A stretch of DNA of 26,412 nt from Cochliopodium minus (lineage: Eukaryota; Discosea; Himatismenida; Cochliopodiidae). The stretch lies in the NCBI GenBank assembly GCA_024220525.1, contig JAMYWO010000442.1:1-26412 (forward strand). The letters run 5' to 3'. The position numbers were made by a program, and so were the translations under genes. The stretch's first letter is position 1. The number at the start of each line of letters is the position of its first letter. This document shows, in pieces, positions 3,584 to 21,505 of this stretch. The notes under the pieces are model-generated. The model saw only the letters and a list, made by a program, of their open reading frames with translations, had not been told where the DNA came from and made no database searches.

Positions 3584-6500
3584 TTATTTGGCTTCAAACT
3601 TTTTGTAAAAATTGAAGATAGAACCCAAATCGACCATAGCCCTGCCATTCTTCTCAGAAAGTTTGGAAATTTTGGAGCGGATCTCCTTAAAGATGGAAAG
3701 ATCATTAGGATCGAAAAGATTTGTAAACTCCTTTGTCTTTTGATGTTTCATATCTTCAGAGATATTTGGATAATTCTTTCTGATGGTGGCATCTATTGAA
3801 TCTTCGGGAGTAAACAAAAAGTTGATGAAGGAGATCTGCTGATGGAGCTGGTAGGAATCCAGGATCAACTTCATTTCCTTGCCACATAACTTGCCAGTTT
3901 CGGATTTGCAGTAACAAGAGGGTTTCTTTTTGAGAAAAACGTGGCTGGATCGGAAAGAACAAGAATCATCGGAACACATGAGAGTGAATGAAGAGAATTT
4001 GTCGAAGAACTTTCTCAATTCTGAATCGATCTTGTTAAGAAAAAAAGCTCTGGTGAATTTCTTATTGCAACTTGGACAAGACAAAGCAGATACAAAGCGG
4101 AAAGAATCTTGGTTGACATTAGGATCGTTGTTTTCGTCATTGATGTTGATGGTGGAGGAGTTGTTATTTTCCACTTTTCTGAGAATTCCATCGATGACAA
4201 ACTTGTGATTGCAGGAACAAACAAAGTTGAGAGGAGCACAGTTGCGATATCTATCAATGGGATCAATGTTGAAAGAATTAAATTTGTCGAATTCAGAAAA
4301 GTCACGATTGACGGTGGGATTAGGTTTGTTGATCTTCAATCCCAAAAGATTGGCTATTTCCTCTGGAGATAAAGATTCAATGGGAGCCAACAAACGGGAG
4401 ACGGGAGGAAAAATCTGTTGGTTGATGTACCATTCGAAATCAAGTTTGATTTCGTTGTTGGATTTGAGGAGATGATCAGGATGGAAAGCCCTTTCCGAAA
4501 CAGAACTGTCTCCTTGACAAATGACATAGGGGATGTGAGTACCCGCAACAACTCTTTCGTTTCTCTCCAACATCTTGAGAGCGACTTGCACATGAGGAAG
4601 TTTTTGGGTATCACTGTAAGATTTGGGATCTTTGTTGAGCCCTCTCGTGATGATGAAATCCTTCAAGGAGACCTGACCATTACGTATCTTTTCACCTTGT
4701 TGTTTGAGATAATCTTTGATGGTCTCCAAGGATTCTTCGAGAGGTTTGCCTGAGAGGATCTGATCCAAAATGAAGTTTCCCATTTGTTTGGAGAGATCGC
4801 ACCAATCTCTTCTCACGAGATCCAATCCTTTAGATTCGATCGAGGTTTTCCATTCTTCTTTTCCGTTTTTGTTGTTCACTTTGGAGAGGGTGTTGGTGGC
4901 GTACTTCTTCTTGGAGAGGAGCAACATTGATTTGTAGATCCCATCGATCGCTATCTCCAAGGTCTTGTACTGAACGTTCACCTCTTTGATAACTGATTTT
5001 CCAACTTTGATTGCATCTTCTATCTCATTAGATCCAGTATAAATCATGATGGAATCAGTATCACCTAAAAAAATAAAAATATTAATAAAAATTTGTTGAG
5101 ATTAAATCAATCAATGTAAATATTTCGTAAAAATGATAATAGGATAAGTACAAAAGATAAAATGATAATTTGGAATTTGTTCTCAAGAAATTATTTTTAA
5201 AAATGTTAAATACCATAAATAACTCTGAGATGTAAGTTGTTGTTCGCTATGTTGACTGTTTTCTGCAAAGTTTCTCTGCCACAACGAGTGATGAGCTCAG
5301 CAAGAGGCATGGCATAGAACCTCGAGTTTTTGTAACCAAGGCAACCATAAAGACTGTTAGCAGTCAACTTGAAGGCCTTTTGTTTAACGTCGAGCTGTTG
5401 CAACTTTTCAGGATCCTTGGTTTTTTCAACTTCGGATCTAACTTGTCTTCTTCTATCAACCAATGTTTTTAGAACTTGTGGAAGAACACCCCTTTCAACA
5501 GTAGGGTCAGGTACACTCGAAGGTAACCACTTGTCATTCTCACTATCTCTTGTTCTGGTGACAGTAGTGAAACAGATGTTGTACTCTTGGATGATGGAAG
5601 GATACAAAGAGTTGAAATCCAACAAAATAACCGTCTTGTCATAAAATCCAACCTGTGGATCAAGAACGAGACCTCCCTTGAAAGCAGGACCCTTTTTCTT
5701 TTCTTCTCCGTTATTGTACTTTTGAACTTTCTTTTCAGGTAAAAGGTAGTGTCTGTTGTGAAACTCATGCAACAAGAGGTATTCTATCCTGAGAGCCCTT
5801 CCTCCTTGAAGAGTAGAAGACCAAACATTTCCTGCCAAGTTGGTCAACTGTTTGGTCAATGGAAGCATTTCCAATTTATACAACAAACAAAGAGCAATGT
5901 AACAATCGTTTTCTGCATGTTCTATGTATTTCAACAAGTTTGGTGCAGAAGAGTAATGAGGTTCAGGCTCATCACCAAGATCGTATCTCTTTATGGAAAG
6001 TTGTGTATCTGCAAGAAAACCCAAAGTATAGTTTTTCAATCTGACAAGCTCTTTGGTGTTGACAAAGGTATCACAAGGCAGTCTTCCTGCAAAAACACTT
6101 CTCTCATCTTGATCAGAGTTTCCTGTTCCTCCTGCTCCCCTTTGGAGTCTAGGGAAATCGATTCTTTCAAGTCTTCCTATCTTTGACCAATTTGAAATTC
6201 TCAACTTTTGCATTCTGTGAAGCAAAACATCCAAGTCGAAACCTAAGAGATTGTGTCCAACAATAACATCAGGATCGATGAGATGAATCTTTGCAATAAA
6301 GTAGTTCAACAATCCCTTTTCGTCTTCAACAAACTCAATCTTCTTGTTGTTCCTGTCTGCCATCTTCTTCACTTGATCGGGAAAGAGGGTGTTGGAAAGT
6401 TTTCTAATTACAGAAAATGATCTAAACTCCTTTTTCATTTTGTTCAAAGATTGTACAGAATCTATGTTGACATTTTTGGAGATCATTCCAGAAATACAAA

Positions 6501-8006
6501 CGATCTCATTGATTTGAAGACTTTGCACAAACTGAGTTTTCACATTAAGAGAAAGAACAGTCAATGTAGGTGTATCTTTTTTCCCGCTCATGATCTCAAC
6601 ATCTCCTGCGCCTGCATAAAGTTCGAATGCACACCATGACTTTTTTTGTTTCTTAGGAACAACTTTGACACCATCCAAAGAGAGCCAACTTGGGCCCATG
6701 ATTTTCTTGTTGAGCAAAAAGTCTTCCAACAGAGAAACTTGATTACCAATCAACTTTGAAAATATTTTGGAAGGGATTTTGGATTCATTCAATCTTCCAT
6801 GTTTTACAGGATAGATCACTTCCCAAAATGTGCTTGTTCCCTTTTTGATGGAGGGATCGTCAAAGTGATAAGTCTTCTCGGTTTGTTTGAATTGAAAATC
6901 TTTCATGCCATATTTGTTTTGCATCAAGTCGATCAAATCTTTTTCGGTATCATCAAAGTTCAATCCATCCGATGGTAAAAGAAAAACTCTATGTCTGAGA
7001 TTGGTCAAAGAGATGCAACAACTGTGGTATTCATTATCTTTTTCAACTTTTCCGATGAGATACAATTCCCTTATTCCTTCATATGCATCGAGAAAATAGA
7101 AATTCAAGTTACCATCTTCTTCCAAGAGCTTGGTTGGATCCATATCTTCGGATTTATTAATAGTCATTTCTCCTGGATTCTCCAATTCATTTGCTATTGT
7201 GAACCAATCTTCTTGATCAATTACTTCCTCTTCTACTTCCATTTTATTCTTATCTTCATTCTTATTTTCCTCATTATCCTCCATTTTTTCATCATTATCT
7301 TCTTTATCTTCATTGTTATTGCTATTGCTGATTTCAGATGGAAGGATATTGTATTTTGAAGATAATTCTTTTTCTATCAAAGCGGAATCTTCAACAAATT
7401 TCTTGAATGTACTTGCTGAATTTTTATTAAAGGTAAGATTTGTTTGTTTTTTCTTTGGAGAAACCTTCTTTATTTGTGTATTGGATGAATTAGAACTGGT
7501 TTGATCATAATCACCCAAAAAATCAATTTCTTTATCATCAAATTTCTTATCATCGTTTATCTTTGCTTTTCTATTGCTGGATGATAACAAAAATTGTTCA
7601 ATGGTTTGATTTGGTTTTGTCGCTTCCAATTTCTTCTTATTTATTTTCTTCTTTTCCTTTTTCTTTTTTTCTTTATTTTTAATTCTCTTTTCCTGTTTTT
7701 CTTTTTCTTTCTTTTGATTTGCAAATGAATATTGTCCTACATCCAAATCAATTTCATCTTCATTTTCATCTATTTTTTTTTTTTTTATATTTTAATATTG
7801 TAAATTCAAGATTAAACATACCACTCATATCTTCATCACTTGATTTATATTCTTCGGATGATTCCTGAATATTAACAATATATATTGATAAATAAAAATA
7901 ACTGAATATATTTTAATAAAAGTATTGAATTTGCCTCCTCATAATTTCTTTTTTCAGTGCTAAATCCTTTATTTTCTTTTTTTCTTGAAGATTTTCTTGA
8001 ATCCAT
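3584..8006 (-). CDS. POLA1: DNA polymerase alpha catalytic subunit (1383 aa)
   Basis: Catalytic subunit of DNA polymerase alpha-primase, which extends RNA primers at replication initiation in the nucleus. Four exons: 7935-8006, 7822-7864, 5214-7769 and 3584-5064; 4152 nt, TAA stop. The N-terminus is Lys-rich, then acidic (residues about 50-200). The exonuclease-like domain has IVGHNLLGFDLDVLL near 540. Polymerase motif A DFNSLYPSII has its Asp at about 756, motif B KLTANSLYG is 839-847, and motif C YGDTDS is 890-895. The C-terminus carries two zinc-binding cysteine clusters, C1173/C1175/C1220/C1223 and about C1254-C1284, that dock the B subunit. Length is close to the 1462 of the human protein. 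Intron 1 appears to use a GC donor (GAG|GCAAAT). Intron 3 (5065-5213) splits the Gly codon of YGDTDS. The start gives an acidic N-terminus typical of the family. Confidence 0.96.
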
Positions 8007-12230: not shown

Positions 12231-15200
12231 TTAATTGTTCTCAGTGAGATTAGGCAAGGTGTTCGATTGGGTAGGAGTGGTCTCTAAATTGTAAATAGAA
12301 GAAACAATGTCAGTGTTGAAAATGGAGTCCAAATGTTTTATCAGCACAACAACCAAAGAGCAATTCAAGTTGTTGTCAAGAATAGAATAAACACTTTCCT
12401 CTCTATCAACAAAAAAAAAACGAGATGAACTTAGGTTTTTAATAAATTTAAATAATAAAAAAATTAAAGAAAAATGAGAGAAAATAAATTAATAAATTAA
12501 AAAAAATCGAATTAAAATAAAATGATAAAAATAAAATAAAAATAACTAATTTAAATACAAAGTAAAGGAAAAAAAAAAAAAAATCAAAATTTTTTTTTTA
12601 CCTTGGTCTTGACAATGTAGGTCCAAATACTACAGCAATATTATTTACATTCATTTTGTTGGAAGAACTATTGTCGACTATCTCTTTCAAGTGACTAAAT
12701 AAAAGAATTTATCAAACGAAAAAAAAAATGAATTTTTTTTTTACGTGGAAATTTGTTTTAGCGCAATTTGGTTGATTGGTTCCAATTTTTTGATGAGATT
12801 TTGCATTTTTGAAATCAAAACTTGATCTAAAAGGATATTTTTAAATTTAGATTTATTTTAGTTTTTTTTTTTTAAAAATTATTTTTTTTTATATTTTTTT
12901 AATAAATGTAAATAATTTTTTTATTTTATTTTTTTCATCAAATTTTTATTTTTATTTTATTTTTATTTTATTTTATCGATTTTTTTTACCTGTTTTTTCA
13001 AGCAATTTGAGTTTGTGTTCTTTTAAGAGACGAGTGTACTCCTCCGAACCTTCTTCCACATCGGAAATGGGAGAAGAATCGGAATGCAAATTCTTTAACT
13101 TTAAAATTCCGTCTTCCAATTCTTGATGAACTCTTATCACCTCAATAAATTCTTTAAAAAAATTGGAAGAATGATTAAAAAACAGTTTCAAAGATTTTTT
13201 ATTTTTGATTTTTTAATTTTTATTTTTTTTATTTATTTTTTATTTTAATTAATTTATTTTTTATTTTATTTTTTTTATTTTAATTAATTTTTTTGATTTT
13301 TTTTTTTTGATTTTTTTTTTTTATTTTAATCATTTTTTTTATTTTTTTTATTTTTTTTTTTATTTTTGTCATTATTATTTTTACCATCATAAAATTCGAA
13401 AGGAATGACAGGTTCTTCTATTTGACGCAGATACAACTTGAAAGAAGAAGCGACGACATGACAGCTGTCTTCAGTGAGAAATTTTTCGAAAAAATCTGAT
13501 TTAGAAATACAAAAAGAAGCCCAAACCTATTTTGTAGTAAGAAATTTATTTTTATCATTTTTTTCATTTTTATTTTTTTATTTTTCTTTATTTTTTATTT
13601 TTTTTATTTTATTTTTTTTTTTAAATTTATTTTTAATTTTTTTATTTAGTTTTTTACCATTTTAACAACTTGTGTGTTGGCAGATATTCTGTAAATACCT
13701 TCCACTTTCATTGCTTAATAATCGTTAAAATTGAAAACAATAAATTAATAACATAATAAAATTGGGTCGAAATTGAAATTAAAATAAAAAAAATGAAAAA
13801 TGGAAAATCATGAAATTAAAAATTAATGAGAAATGAGAAAATTAAATAATGAAAATAAAATTAATTTAATTAAAAATTTAAAGGAAAAATGAATATAAAA
13901 ATTAAAATTTAAAATAAACAAATTTAAAAAATTTAAAGTTACCATTAGGATATTTCTTGAAAAAATTGATCGAAAAATTAAGAACGACCAAATCAAGAGT
14001 AGAAGAACACTTGTCAAGCTTGGCAGAACTACGAAAAGAAAGTTTTTTGTTGTTAGCAGAGTTTTGGAGATCAGACTTGGTGACATAATTGAGAATTTGG
14101 CGGCCTTCTTTGTTGGAGAGGAGGAGCTTTTTGAATTTCTCCTCCATTGTGTTTTCGTTGGTGTTTTTTGGAGATTGTTGTGTGTTGTTGTTGTTGGTGT
14201 TGTTGTTGTTAGTGTTGCTGTTCAGATTTTTTTTGTAGATGAAAGACAGTGTCACCACCTTCCCTTTTTCTTTAAGAGAAAAATTTTTTTGGATGATTAA
14301 AAATTATTTATAAAAATAAAATATAATTATAAAAAAATTTGTAAAAAGATTGACAAAATATTGTTGAAAAATTTAAATCATTATAAAAAATAATGATACT
14401 AATAAAAACTTTTTAATAATTATTTGGAACAATTTTGAATAATTTAAAATTTATGAATTTAATAAAAAAAATTTTGAAGAAATTTTAAAATAAAAAAAAT
14501 CTCAGATTAACAAAAATAAATTTTTTTATATTTTTATTTTATAAGTTTTTTTAAAAATTTTAATTACCAATTTCTTTTGTTTGTTCTTCGCTTAAATAAT
14601 TGGAGAGAGTGACATCTTCAGAAACAAATTCATTTTTGAATTCATCAAACAGAGAACCATCTCTCTTTATATCCCCCAGCAAGTTGGGAGGTGTCTCCTC
14701 CAGAAATTTCTGAAGCACTTTCTTAAAGTTGCTGCTGACCAAAACGAAATTAGCTTTTTCGATGTGATAATTCTCCAATTTGATCACTATTTTCACCTTA
14801 TTTTTAAAAAATTTCAATAAAATTAATTTTTTATTAAATTTGAGATTTTATTAAATTTGAATTTTAAATTTTAATTTTTTTCATTTAATTAATTTTGATT
14901 TCTACTTTAAATTTTATTTTTTAAAATTTATTCTTTTTAACATTTTTTTATACTTTATTTTTGTGAAATTTTAATAATTTATTTTTTATTTTTATTATTA
15001 ATTTTTCTTTTTTTATAATTTTTTTTCAGTTTTTTTTTACATTTTTTTATTTTATTATTAATTTAATTTATTTGATTTTTTAATACCTCTTTTCCTTTGT
15101 TATTATTTTGTTTGGGAATTTCTCTTCGATGGGGAGAGAGAGAATCATTGAAAGGACCTTTTTGTTCTTAATGTTTGGGATCTCTCTAGAGTGCCATTTT

Positions 15201-18200
15201 CCCATTTCTCCCGATATTTTCTTCCTGATAAGTTCTGAAGAGCCTATTTGGTTAAAATTTAAAATTAAAAATTTAAAATTTAAATTCAAATAAATGATTT
15301 TAAAAATAAAAAAATAAATAAATAAAATGAATGAAAGATTTTAAAATATTTCAATAATTTATGAAGATGTATTTTTATTCAGCAGCATAATATATAAAAA
15401 TGACAAAAATATTAAGTAAAAATATGTTGAATAAATTATAATTTGAGAAAAAATGTTGAATCAATAAGAAAAAAGGATTAATAAAATTAAATTTTGTAAA
15501 AATAAAAAGAATGTAATTTAACAAATGAAGAAAAATGATTTTTTTAAAAATTATTTCAAAAAAAAAACTTTAATTTAAAAATAAGGATTTTTTTTTACTG
15601 CTAAGTGTTTCAACATCATTTTCGCTTTTATTCAAAATTTTTGGGATTGGTCTTGTAAACAAAATACAAAACTAACTCCTCCTTGTTCAACTCCAAAAGG
15701 CGGATTTGTTCCTCACTGAGATACTTGGAGATGACCATGTCGTCATACACAAACTCTTGTTTGTTCTCGTCCCACAAGGAGCCTCCCTTTTTGAGGTTTC
15801 CGAGGAGGTTGGAGGGAGTTTCTTCGAGGAATTTCTGCAGCTCTTTTTTGAAGGTGGATTTGAGTGAGCAGATGTTTGATCTTTCTATGTTCAGGCTTTC
15901 CAATTTGATCACTAATTTTATCTGTGAAATAAAAAAAAAATCATAAAAATTTTTTTATTTGTAAATTTAATCCATTTGATAAAAAAATAAAATAATTATT
16001 TTGTGAAAAAATTTTATTTTATTTTTAATTCTTAAAGAAGGAATTTCAAAAAGATTTTTTTAATTTTTTTTTAAATGTTTATAATCATTCATTTAAATGC
16101 AAAAAGATTTATTTTTGATTATTGTTTTGAATATCAAAAAAATTTTTAAAGTATTTTTGATTTTAATAATTTTAATAGTTTTAATTGTTAAATTTTTTGT
16201 TTTACTTTTTTTGCTTTTTTAGGTTTGAAACTATCTTTTTGAAGAAAACTGTCCAAAAACATGGTCTGAGAACGATTTCTGAAGGAAAGTCTCTCCGTCA
16301 AAGGACTCGTTTTGCTGTTTCTCATGGGTTTCAATCCCATGATTTTTTCCTCCAAATGAAATCCAAGTTTAGGAGGAGAACTCGATATTTCTTTTTTTGG
16401 AGAAACTAATTCTTTTGGTGCTACATCTTCATTAGATTCAATAAATGAAATTAAATATTTTTTTAAAAAAATTGAACAAAAATAAAAATTGGGTTTGAAA
16501 AGAGTTTAAAAAATAAAATTGGTAATTTTAAAAAAGTCAAGACAAATAAAAAAAGGAATTTTCAATAAAATTAAAATTCAAATAGGTTTGTTGAATAAAA
16601 ATTAATATTCAAATAAAATTAAAATTCAATAAAATAAAAATAAAATTAAATTTAAAAATAGGTTTGTTATATAAAAATCAATATTTTTAAATGAATAAAA
16701 TTTTTTTTTTCTAAAAATGAATTAACATATAAAAAAATATTACCCTTCTTTTTACAAAGTAAATTTAAAGTTGCTACTTCTCCTTGTTTTATTTTTTTTC
16801 TTTGTTCTTCCGAAATATATTTGGAGATAACCCCTTCTTCAGGGACATACTCTTTGTTTGTCTCATCCCAAAAAACACATTCTTTTTTGGTTTCGCTGGA
16901 GATGTTGGGAGGGAGGTCTTCGAGAAACTTTTCGAGCTCTTTTTTGAAAGTGGAATTAATGGGACAAAAAAATGATTTGTCAACTTGATGATTCTCCATC
17001 TTTATAATCAAGAAGATCTAAAAAAAAAAATTTAAAAAAACCAAAAGATTATTCAAAAAAAAAAAAAATTTAAAATAATAAAAAACATAAAATAAAGATA
17101 ATCAATTTAAAATAATTGAAAATCTTATTATTTATTGAGAATTTTTTTTTTTTACTTCTTTTCCTTTGTTGGGTACTTCGAATTGACTGAGAAGCTGAAG
17201 ACCACCCATCTTCTCTATCTGCAAAGAAACAGGTCGGGTCGTCCTCTTGTTAAAAGCACTGTCAGTGCTAGCCCTAGAGAATATTTGGCGAAGGGGACTC
17301 TTTCCAGTGATAGTTTTTTTTCCTAATAACTTGGGGCTCCTTTCCTTCTCATTCAGTTGATTGTCATTTAGCGGAGAATTATTTGTATCATTACTCGTGT
17401 CCTTTTCAAAACTAATGCGGACATTTTTTTTCCTAACGAAAGAGTTATCAGTGGGAACATAGAAAAGCTCTAATGAAGACACGTTCCCTTCTTTTATTTC
17501 GTTGACTTGTTCTTCGGAGAGCCACTTCCAAATGGGAGTTTCCTCATCCAAAAAACATTGTTTATGTTCGTCCCACAGGTCCATTCCTTGTTTGGATTCT
17601 TGGAAATTAGGGTCTTCTTTGAACAACTTTTCTATTTCTGTTTCAAATGTTGAATTTGCGGAACAGTAATGTTCATGTCTATTATTTTTTATGTGTATCA
17701 CAAGTTTTACCTTTTTTTTTTTGAAAGATACAAATTAAATTAATTTTTTTGAAAGTAAAAAAATTTTGAATGAATTCTTTATGTAAAATAAAAGAAATTG
17801 AGATTTTTTAAAATCTTAAAATAAAGCTTTAAAAATTTTTTTTTTTTTTTACTTTGTTTTCGGTTATATCATAACCTTTGATATCATTAAGAGTCATTTC
17901 TCCTAAAGACTTGAAACTAGGACCAGACGAAGAAAATTTCTTCGCACCATCAAGAGTAAAAGAACGATCCCTCTTGACAGGAATCTGTATACTGGACCCA
18001 AACTGAGTAGTTTTACTTCTGTTCGCTTCAATAACATTTGAATCTTTAACACGTATACTTAGCTTTGGAGATTTATTGTTTTTTTGAGGATTCTTTTTGT
18101 AGATGATATTCAGTGAAACTATTCCGCCGTTTTCTATTTCTTTTATTTGTTCTTCATTGAGATATTTGGAGAGGAGAAGATCTTCTTGGATGAATTGTTT

Positions 18201-18841
18201 TTTGTTTTCGTCCCACAGAGATCCTTGATTTTTTAGATCTCCCAGAAGATCTTGTGGTGTCTCTTCGAGGAATCTCCCTAACTCTTTTTTGAATGTTGAT
18301 TTCAATGAACAGATGTTCGATTTTTCGATGTTGAGGTTCTCCAATTTGATTATCAATTTAACCTGTATTTTTGGAGAAGGAATATTAAATTAAATGGATG
18401 AATAAATGAAATTTGATTTATAATTATTCAATAATTTTATTTCTATATTCTTTATGATGCAAATGAGCTTAATTATCATTGAATCAATGATTAATCCTGA
18501 TCATTCATTTTATGATATCGGATCTCTTAAATTTAAAAAATCAAAAAAATGATCAAATATATTGAAAAATCTTTAAAGAATCAAAAATCTTAAATAGAGA
18601 TTCTAAAATCTAGAATATATTTCTTAAATGGATTTTTATTCCACTCTCTTACCTCCTTCCCCTTGTGTGATTTCAAATCATCGTTAATCTGTGACTTTGA
18701 TGATATCTTTCCCTCACTTATAGATTTGGATCTGAGAATTCTATTCTTGTTATTATCAACAGTTTTCTCACCTCCCTTCAAATTATTCCAAAACTTTTTA
18801 AATTTTCCATCCCCCTTTATCTTTTCTGTTTTATCATTCAT
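12231..18841 (-). CDS. RhoGAP protein with five tandem copies of an unrecognised ~90-residue domain (about 1163 aa, 15 exons)
   Basis: GTPase-activating protein for Rho-family GTPases. Exons: 18653-18841, 17853-18362, 17156-17710, 16744-17017, 16206-16426, 15599-15921, 15087-15243, 14568-14796, 13943-14269, 13658-13713, 13385-13526, 12990-13151, 12745-12826, 12602-12694, 12231-12402; together 3492 nt, TAA stop. Residues 64-833 hold five repeats joined by Ser/Lys-rich linkers; an Asn-rich stretch follows (about 837-850). The RhoGAP domain is about 904-1137. GIYRIS carries the arginine finger (R937), and HVVASSFKLYLR, NKMNVNNIAVVFGPTLSRP and VVVLIKHLDSI follow. Exons 6 and 7 as given are not open in one frame: two A-runs (15638-15642, 15159-15163) shift it out and back, though their summed length is in phase. 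Exon 5 could begin at 16426 or 16420 in the same frame. Introns are up to 355 nt. The Rac-like gene at 20.8 kb is a candidate substrate. Confidence 0.85.
14229..18362 (-). repeat. Five tandem coding repeats (R1-R5) inside the RhoGAP gene
   Basis: The repeats lie at R1 18093-18362, R2 17456-17710, R3 16744-17017, R4 15652-15921 and R5 14796 down to about 14229 (interrupted by an intron). Every repeat begins at the first codon of an exon, in phase 0, with a beta-strand-like V/I-K-L-V-I-K-L. Shared features in order: C or a similar residue, STFKKELxKFLEExP, a LWDExxKxF block, ISKYLSEEQxKEI, and a final strand such as VSLNIIYKK. R1 and R4 are the most alike, R2 and R3 the most diverged. The order strand-strand-helix-strand-helix-strand resembles a ubiquitin-like beta-grasp fold; that is inference, and I do not recognise a named family. 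Confidence 0.8.
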
Positions 18842-20686: not shown

Positions 20687-21505
20687 ATGGTAAAATTTTT
20701 TTCTTGAATTTGAAAACAAAAGTTTTCTTACTAATTTCCTTAATTCTCAAATATATTTTAGGCATCAATGCAATCAATCAAATTGGTAGTTGTTGGAGAT
20801 GGAGCAGTTGGAAAAACTTGCTTGTTGATCAGTTATACATCAAATTCATTCCCACAAGAATATGTCCCAACTGTATTTGACAATTATTCAGCAAATGTAA
20901 TGGTAGATGAAAGAACTATCTCATTGGGACTTTGGGATACTGCAGGACAAGAAGATTATGATAGATTGAGACCATTATCTTATCCTCAAACAGGTAAATT
21001 AAAAAATTATAAATTTTTTTTGATATATTCTCAATACAAAATACGCTAAAAAAAAAATTTATATAAATTAATATTCAAATTTCAAATCTTAAATTCACTT
21101 TAATCAAATATATACCCAAATTCTTATTTATTTCCTTTTTGAATAGATGTCTTTTTGATTTGCTATTCCATCATATCACCAACATCCTTTCAAAATGTTA
21201 AAACAAAATGGGTTCCTGAAGTGAAACATCATTGCCCAGATACCAAGATGGTTCTCGTAGCAACCAAATTGGATTTGAGAGAAGATCAAGAACAAATCCA
21301 AAGATTAAAAGAAAAGGGTCTCGCACCTGTTAATACCGAAGCAGGTCTTGGTCTTTCAAAAGAAATTGGAGCTACCTCATACTGTGAATGTTCTGCTTTG
21401 ACCCAAAAGAACTTGAAAGAGGTCTTTGATGAGGCTATCAAGGCTGTCATCGGTGGTTCTAAAACTAATAAATCTTCCAACAAGAAAGGTTGCTCCATCT
21501 TGTAA
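20687..21505 (+). CDS. Rac-like small GTPase (194 aa from ATG at 20768)
   Basis: A Rho-family molecular switch controlling actin and membrane dynamics at the plasma membrane. Coding exons are 20768-20993 and 21147-21505, with a GTAAATT...GAATAG intron in phase 1; 585 nt, TAA stop. Motifs: P-loop GDGAVGKT (10-17), switch [14 protein letters not shown], switch [26 protein letters not shown] (115-118), CSAL and the C-terminal prenylation box CSIL, where the last Leu favours geranylgeranylation. Sequence and length are close to human Rac1, which also starts MQAIK. An alternative start exists: an ATG at 20687-20689 directly followed by GTAAAATT, spliced to the AG at 20759-20760, would give [13 protein letters not shown], the whole first exon contributing one codon. 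Position 114 is Ala where Rac1 has Gly (VGTKLD). Confidence 0.95.

Follow-up and report, generated by a model that had tools for sequence, protein, structure and literature searches.

RA and RB domains have a ubiquitin-like topology, with the second beta strand contacting switch I of the GTPase, and have conserved basic residues at CRAF positions 59 and 84, as described in a passage of PMC8163975. Related folds are reported with similar partners: the SPN domain of SHANK binds Ras and Rap1 (excerpt of PMC10861631), while most Rap1b binding of talin F0 is abolished when K15A and R35A are combined (excerpt of PMC5701058). The RA domain of ARAP1, in turn, is described in part of PMC12756398 as binding Rap1/Rac1 and as needed for RhoA inhibition. 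The present work concerns a minus-strand gene (18841 to 12231) within a 26,412-nt stretch of Cochliopodium minus DNA (GenBank assembly GCA_024220525.1, contig JAMYWO010000442.1, positions 1 to 26,412; the window below), in which the exons for a RhoGAP domain are preceded by five related segments, R1-R5, each predicted to be a beta-grasp domain. With a probability of roughly 40%, we read it as a RhoGAP with an expanded RA/F0-like array that would recruit or gate the RhoGAP domain, perhaps by binding active small GTPases. A RhoGAP with such a multivalent beta-grasp array was not found in the literature searched.

Repeats and RhoGAP domain

R1-R5 are five minus-strand segments of 91–94 residues each, located N-terminal to the RhoGAP domain. 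A sixth copy, the sole one found outside the window, is present on another contig of the assembly, C456 (16744-17019, plus strand), and the pairwise identity over the 15 pairs of the six copies was 32–65%. The genome (44.65 Mb, 598 contigs) was searched with the single repeats R1, R2, R3, R5 and the C456 copy, leaving out R4 as a query. R1 recovered R4 at E 7.1e-33, the C456 copy at 2.0e-25, R5 at 7.9e-24, R3 at 4.5e-21 and R2 at 2.9e-11, and with R1 or R3 as the query, the E-values of the other window copies did not exceed 3e-10. The queries R3, R2, C456 copy and R5 returned the same six copies and no other match below E 0.2 in the own genome, the weakest pairing among the five queries being that of R5 against R2 (E 1.5e-3). 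The five repeats ahead of a RhoGAP domain, which the original prediction had recognized in the letters of the window, were thus borne out by searches with single repeats at E 7e-33 to 1.5e-3. Seven residues are invariant in the repeats, six of them being P36, K44, D51, E70, E71 and Q72.

Five further own-genome matches beyond the six copies (E 0.235 to 5.44) were rejected as relatives, three of the five having been inspected. An open frame on contig C39 (29657-29887) looked ubiquitin-like by eye; it matched R3 at E 0.405 and was not accepted as a relative, and this contig had no match in the genome RhoGAP search.

RhoGAP domains depend on a catalytic arginine finger together with supporting Lys, Arg and Asn residues. 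The spliced exons 8–15 matched PF00620 with 98.9 bits (cut-off 24.5; E 3.3e-28), with the arginine finger kept in GIYRIS (codon 13690-13688), as had been predicted. In alignments with solved RhoGAPs and with a p50RhoGAP sequence, this motif, FKLYLR and NNIAVVFGP all find their counterparts; since all three are kept, the domain appears catalytically equipped and GTPase-activating activity is plausible. In the PDB, 28 distinct sequences matched the catalytic domain with E-values of 0.001 or lower, the best being 1f7c (E 2.9e-17), which we take to be the Graf RhoGAP, 6gvc and 3byi. RhoGAP was the sole Pfam domain above the cut-off in the two open pieces into which the spliced gene falls (see below).

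The repeat on C456 is also followed by a RhoGAP, lying about 900 bp downstream, whose catalytic region is 51% identical to that of the window over 282 columns. This paralogue ties the repeat to RhoGAP independently of the window and provides a one-repeat state for comparison.

Counted exon by exon, the whole genome gave 128 RhoGAP matches at E up to 0.001 among the best 150 of 158 candidates, which suggests a large RhoGAP family. A Rac-like small GTPase gene (Pfam Ras, at least two exons) lies in the window at 20762-21505 on the plus strand, about 1.9 kb beyond the start codon of the RhoGAP gene, and its product is a possible substrate of the RhoGAP.

Predicted fold and candidate function of the repeats

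The AlphaFold models of R1 and of the divergent R2 showed a confident beta-grasp fold (pLDDT 89.8 and 88.4, respectively) with the predicted topology beta-beta-alpha-beta-beta-alpha-beta in the Foldseek and VIA-align comparison. The ubiquitin-like fold, initially guessed from the order of strands and helices, is therefore supported, as a prediction, by two models and by structure comparison. The nearest solved fold for both models was kindlin F0, followed by ubiquitin/SUMO, SHANK SPN and talin F0; the R1 model matched a ubiquitin insertion mutant with a TM-score of 0.68 (query) and 0.81 (target), and a PI3K region, 20-106, was also among the structural matches.

The original statement that the repeat belongs to no named family held in the Pfam, NCBIfam, PHROGs and PDB sequence searches, which produced just weak and inconsistent matches. 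No RA, RBD, F0 or SPN match was obtained in Pfam with the five repeats of the window at E up to 10, a search in which the HMMER filters drop most matches above 0.1, nor with a longer protein containing the C456 copy at E up to 1. For the six copies, the best E-values in NCBIfam and PHROGs were 0.0063 and 0.0017, each obtained with a single copy. The best match of the PDB profile search was Sau3AI (E 0.021, taken as chance), with no RA, RBD, F0 or SPN among the 20 matches, and comparison of the repeat profile with single talin, kindlin, SHANK and ubiquitin sequences by HMM scores and hhalign gave nothing strong. Among 391 pattern matches in a viral contig collection and 38 in a prokaryotic one, no relatives were confirmed. 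A C-terminal Gly-Gly for conjugation was present in none of the six copies. The repeats are predicted to form a beta-grasp family unnamed in the libraries searched.

If the domains of the N-terminal array work like the RA, SPN or talin F0 domains of other regulators, they would bind membrane-anchored, GTP-loaded small GTPases via the second beta strand and the first helix. Several weak contacts of this kind would draw the RhoGAP to places where Ras/Rap/Rac are active, and the RhoGAP recruited there would switch Rho/Rac off. We infer both the GTPase binding and the multivalency of the repeats, and the former stays tentative because the basic residues of talin, SHANK and CRAF are just partly matched. 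In a register set by eye against the talin and SHANK sequences and CRAF, K or R occupies the strand-2 position (talin K15) in five of the six copies and the helix-1 position (CRAF K84) also in five, while K or H is found two residues past the strand-1 position in all six.

A number of observations weigh against GTPase binding by the array. In the same hand-set register, the strand-1 position itself (talin K7, SHANK R12, CRAF R59) is I or V in all six copies, T, L or D takes the place of talin R35, and R2 has no strand-2 lysine, being acidic there (net -3). Neither RA, RBD, F0, SPN nor ubiquitin was matched by the repeats at the sequence level, and out of 500 shuffles of each target, 306 were as good for talin F0, 165 for ubiquitin, 38 for kindlin and 2 for SHANK SPN. 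A fold in common says nothing on function, and the F0 domain of kindlin-2, the closest fold, is said in an excerpt of PMC5701058 not to be a Rap1b effector. Finally, the assembled reading frame is broken, so that R1-R4 are not connected to the RhoGAP.

Alternatively, the repeats may be general docking modules similar to kindlin F0 or to the adaptor-binding domain (ABD) of PI3K, with a non-GTPase partner, such as a cytoskeletal protein, a regulatory subunit or a lipid, placing the RhoGAP. The ABD of PI3K binds p85. We consider this a serious, if tentative, alternative: both models match kindlin F0 best in structure, the PI3K region is among the matches, the reported behaviour of kindlin-2 F0 agrees with it, and the six invariant residues named above, out of seven, lie outside strand 2 and helix 1. 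However, such a partner is hypothetical, and the invariant residues may be structural.

Exon structure and continuity of the array

The RhoGAP gene was modelled from open frames and splice sites as 15 minus-strand exons, from ATG 18841 (inferred start) to TAA 12233-12231. The splice donors read GTAA in 13 of 14 cases and the acceptors AG in all 14, and the AT content was 73.8% in the window and 89.0% in the introns of this gene, close to the 80.65% and 91.86% given for Anaeramoeba ignava in PMC11550330, a paper with no occurrence of the word RhoGAP. Exon 1 (18653..18841), an open frame with a phase-0 GT donor and an inferred start codon, encodes a lysine-rich N-terminal lead, MNDKTEK...SHKGKE. 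Exons 2 (17853..18362, 510 nt) and 3 (17156..17710, 555 nt) are both symmetric (0-0) and contain R1 (18362-18084) and R2 (17710-17438), respectively, each with a linker. R3 is encoded by exon 4 (16744..17017, 274 nt; phase-0 start, phase-1 end), its linker by exon 5 (16206..16426, 221 nt; phase-1 start, phase-0 end), and the two together make a 0-0 pair. Exon 6 (15599..15921) includes R4 (15921-15640) and exon 7 (15087..15243) a linker. R5 is in two parts separated by a phase-1 intron (14567-14270): residues 1–76 (14796-14568) in exon 8 (14568..14796, phase-0 start) and the end (14269-14220) in exon 9 (13943..14269), which continues with an Asn-rich linker and the start of the RhoGAP region. 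The RhoGAP domain extends through exon 10 (13658..13713; AMKVEGIYRISANTQVVKM, with the arginine-finger codon), exon 11 (13385..13526; segment HVVASSFKLYLRQIEEPVIP), exon 12 (12990..13151), which has an insertion relative to a p50RhoGAP sequence, exon 13 (12745..12826) and exon 14 (12602..12694; motif NKMNVNNIAVVFGPTLSRP), and ends at about 12306 in exon 15 (12231..12402), followed by a short tail and the stop codon.

The first codon of every repeat in the window stands directly after an AG acceptor in phase 0 (5/5), and the C456 copy likewise begins at an exon edge in phase 0. The original prediction had placed each repeat at such an edge and four of them in single exons, with R5 split by an intron, and it was right on both counts, R1-R4 having one exon each. 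The motif KGKE ends exons 1, 3 and 7, just ahead of R1, R3 and R5 (in exon 7, in the frame joining R5). The proposed building of the array by exon duplication fits the symmetric exons of R1 and R2 and the exon pair of R3 with its tail; the starting point was probably an ancestor with a single domain, similar to the C456 paralogue, in which 0-0 exon modules were duplicated. Among the 15 repeat pairs, dN was 0.26–0.71, while dS was at least 1.34 or not computable; these values point to old duplications and to repeats that have apparently remained under purifying selection.

The frame is open in two separate pieces, one with exons 1–5 and R4 and another with exons 8–15 (R5 and RhoGAP, 420 aa). 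Exon 6 reads ...FVYKTNPKNFE and then, three codons past R4 as delimited, an in-frame TAA (15630-15628), its tail being open to the donor in another frame; in exon 7, with the splice sites used, two stops precede KGKE in the only frame that runs into R5 in phase. Possible causes of the break are a sequencing error in a homopolymer, the use of other splice sites and decay of the R4 module. Codon-usage scoring of the exon 6–7 frames did not decide the frame. A search of the assembly DNA found no second full-length copy of these exons, only the locus itself, among the best 40 of 144 candidates, and the 71 other matches were AT-rich intron parts or R3.

Of the single protein from R1 to RhoGAP that had been predicted, both flanking pieces are open, but no uninterrupted frame leads across R4-R5. 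We infer that R1-R4 continue into R5-RhoGAP in one protein. Between the last stop of exon 7 and the end of exon 8, the R5-RhoGAP piece lacks an in-frame ATG, and its first Met comes in exon 9, past R5; therefore, upstream exons should feed into it. Since the end of exon 5 and the start of exon 8 are both in phase 0, skipping of exons 6–7 leaves R1-R2-R3-R5-RhoGAP open.

Independently of the function of the repeats, the R4 module might be decaying, or R1-R4 might belong to a separate transcript, so that the working protein would have fewer than five repeats. This is conceivable but on the doubtful side: the stop right after R4, the closed exon 7 and the open frame restored by exon skipping agree with it, whereas R4 is intact and conserved (65% identity to R1, dN 0.26, dS not computable), R5-RhoGAP depends on upstream exons for its start, and a homopolymer error or other splice sites would account for the break as well.

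Elsewhere, the window contains a gene for a DNA polymerase alpha type catalytic subunit with a zinc-finger domain (3584-7791, minus strand), genes for L6-type and S24e ribosomal proteins and an F-box gene. Direct repeats, 77–97% identical to their reference copies, are located near both contig ends (196-585 and 26022-26412; 1372-2386, 2742-3170 and 23050-24062) and include three copies of a repeated open frame, KYELRKKFQNF...KMDLKYKKHINPNKKNIF, one of which was searched in Pfam with no match at E up to 0.001.

Remaining alternatives and comparison with known regulators

The repeats could also act intramolecularly, forming an arm over the RhoGAP with an autoinhibitory or dimerising role, which we consider improbable: in both genes the RhoGAP-nearest repeat is connected to the domain by a linker, Asn-rich in the window and Lys-rich on C456, but these linkers differ in sequence. 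A T1/BTB-like domain, to which the Kv channel T1 chains among the weak PDB sequence matches pointed (12/20, best E 0.2), was rejected, since the five repeats of the window gave no BTB or T1 even as a weak match in Pfam at E up to 10, most matches above 0.1 being dropped by the filters, and the R1 and R2 models are both beta-grasp.

In its widest form, the reading of the repeats as a GTPase-binding array would imply a new beta-grasp family, exon-duplicated in the 0-0 mode to five domains, that lets the RhoGAP read, by multivalent contacts, the density of active small GTPases or several different GTPases simultaneously; taken as a whole, this is unlikely. If the array does bind active GTPases, exon duplication would have turned a one-domain protist RhoGAP into a multivalent device for GTPase crosstalk, for which the one-copy C456 paralogue would be the natural comparison. 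The beta-grasp family would then be invisible to the profiles searched, and protist RhoGAPs might include more cases of RA-like regulation than are counted so far.

Among the described proteins, the catalytic domain is closest in PDB sequence searches to the Graf-type (1f7c), ARHGAP12 and ARHGAP15 RhoGAPs, from which the window protein differs in its N-terminal region and in a mid-domain insertion. Ubiquitin and SUMO have the predicted topology in common with the repeats, which, in contrast, have no terminal Gly-Gly, carry additional helical segments following helix 1 and preceding the final strand and are parts of a multidomain protein. Talin F0, kindlin F0 and SHANK SPN, among the closest solved folds, share with the repeats, by eye, an LW/LF ... 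Y pattern after helix 1; however, the repeats are arranged in tandem, outside a FERM or ankyrin protein and with no significant sequence match, and the strand-1 basic residue of talin F0 and SHANK SPN is missing from them in the by-eye alignment. The RA-domain RhoGAPs ARAP1 and ARAP3 combine a beta-grasp domain with RhoGAP in one protein, as here, but ARAP1 has its RA domain alongside SAM, PH, ArfGAP and ankyrin parts (as listed in an excerpt of PMC12756398), while the window protein has up to five domains with no RA sequence match and no other Pfam domain above the cut-off. The combination of a beta-grasp domain with RhoGAP is a known one, of which this gene would be a variant with an expanded array.
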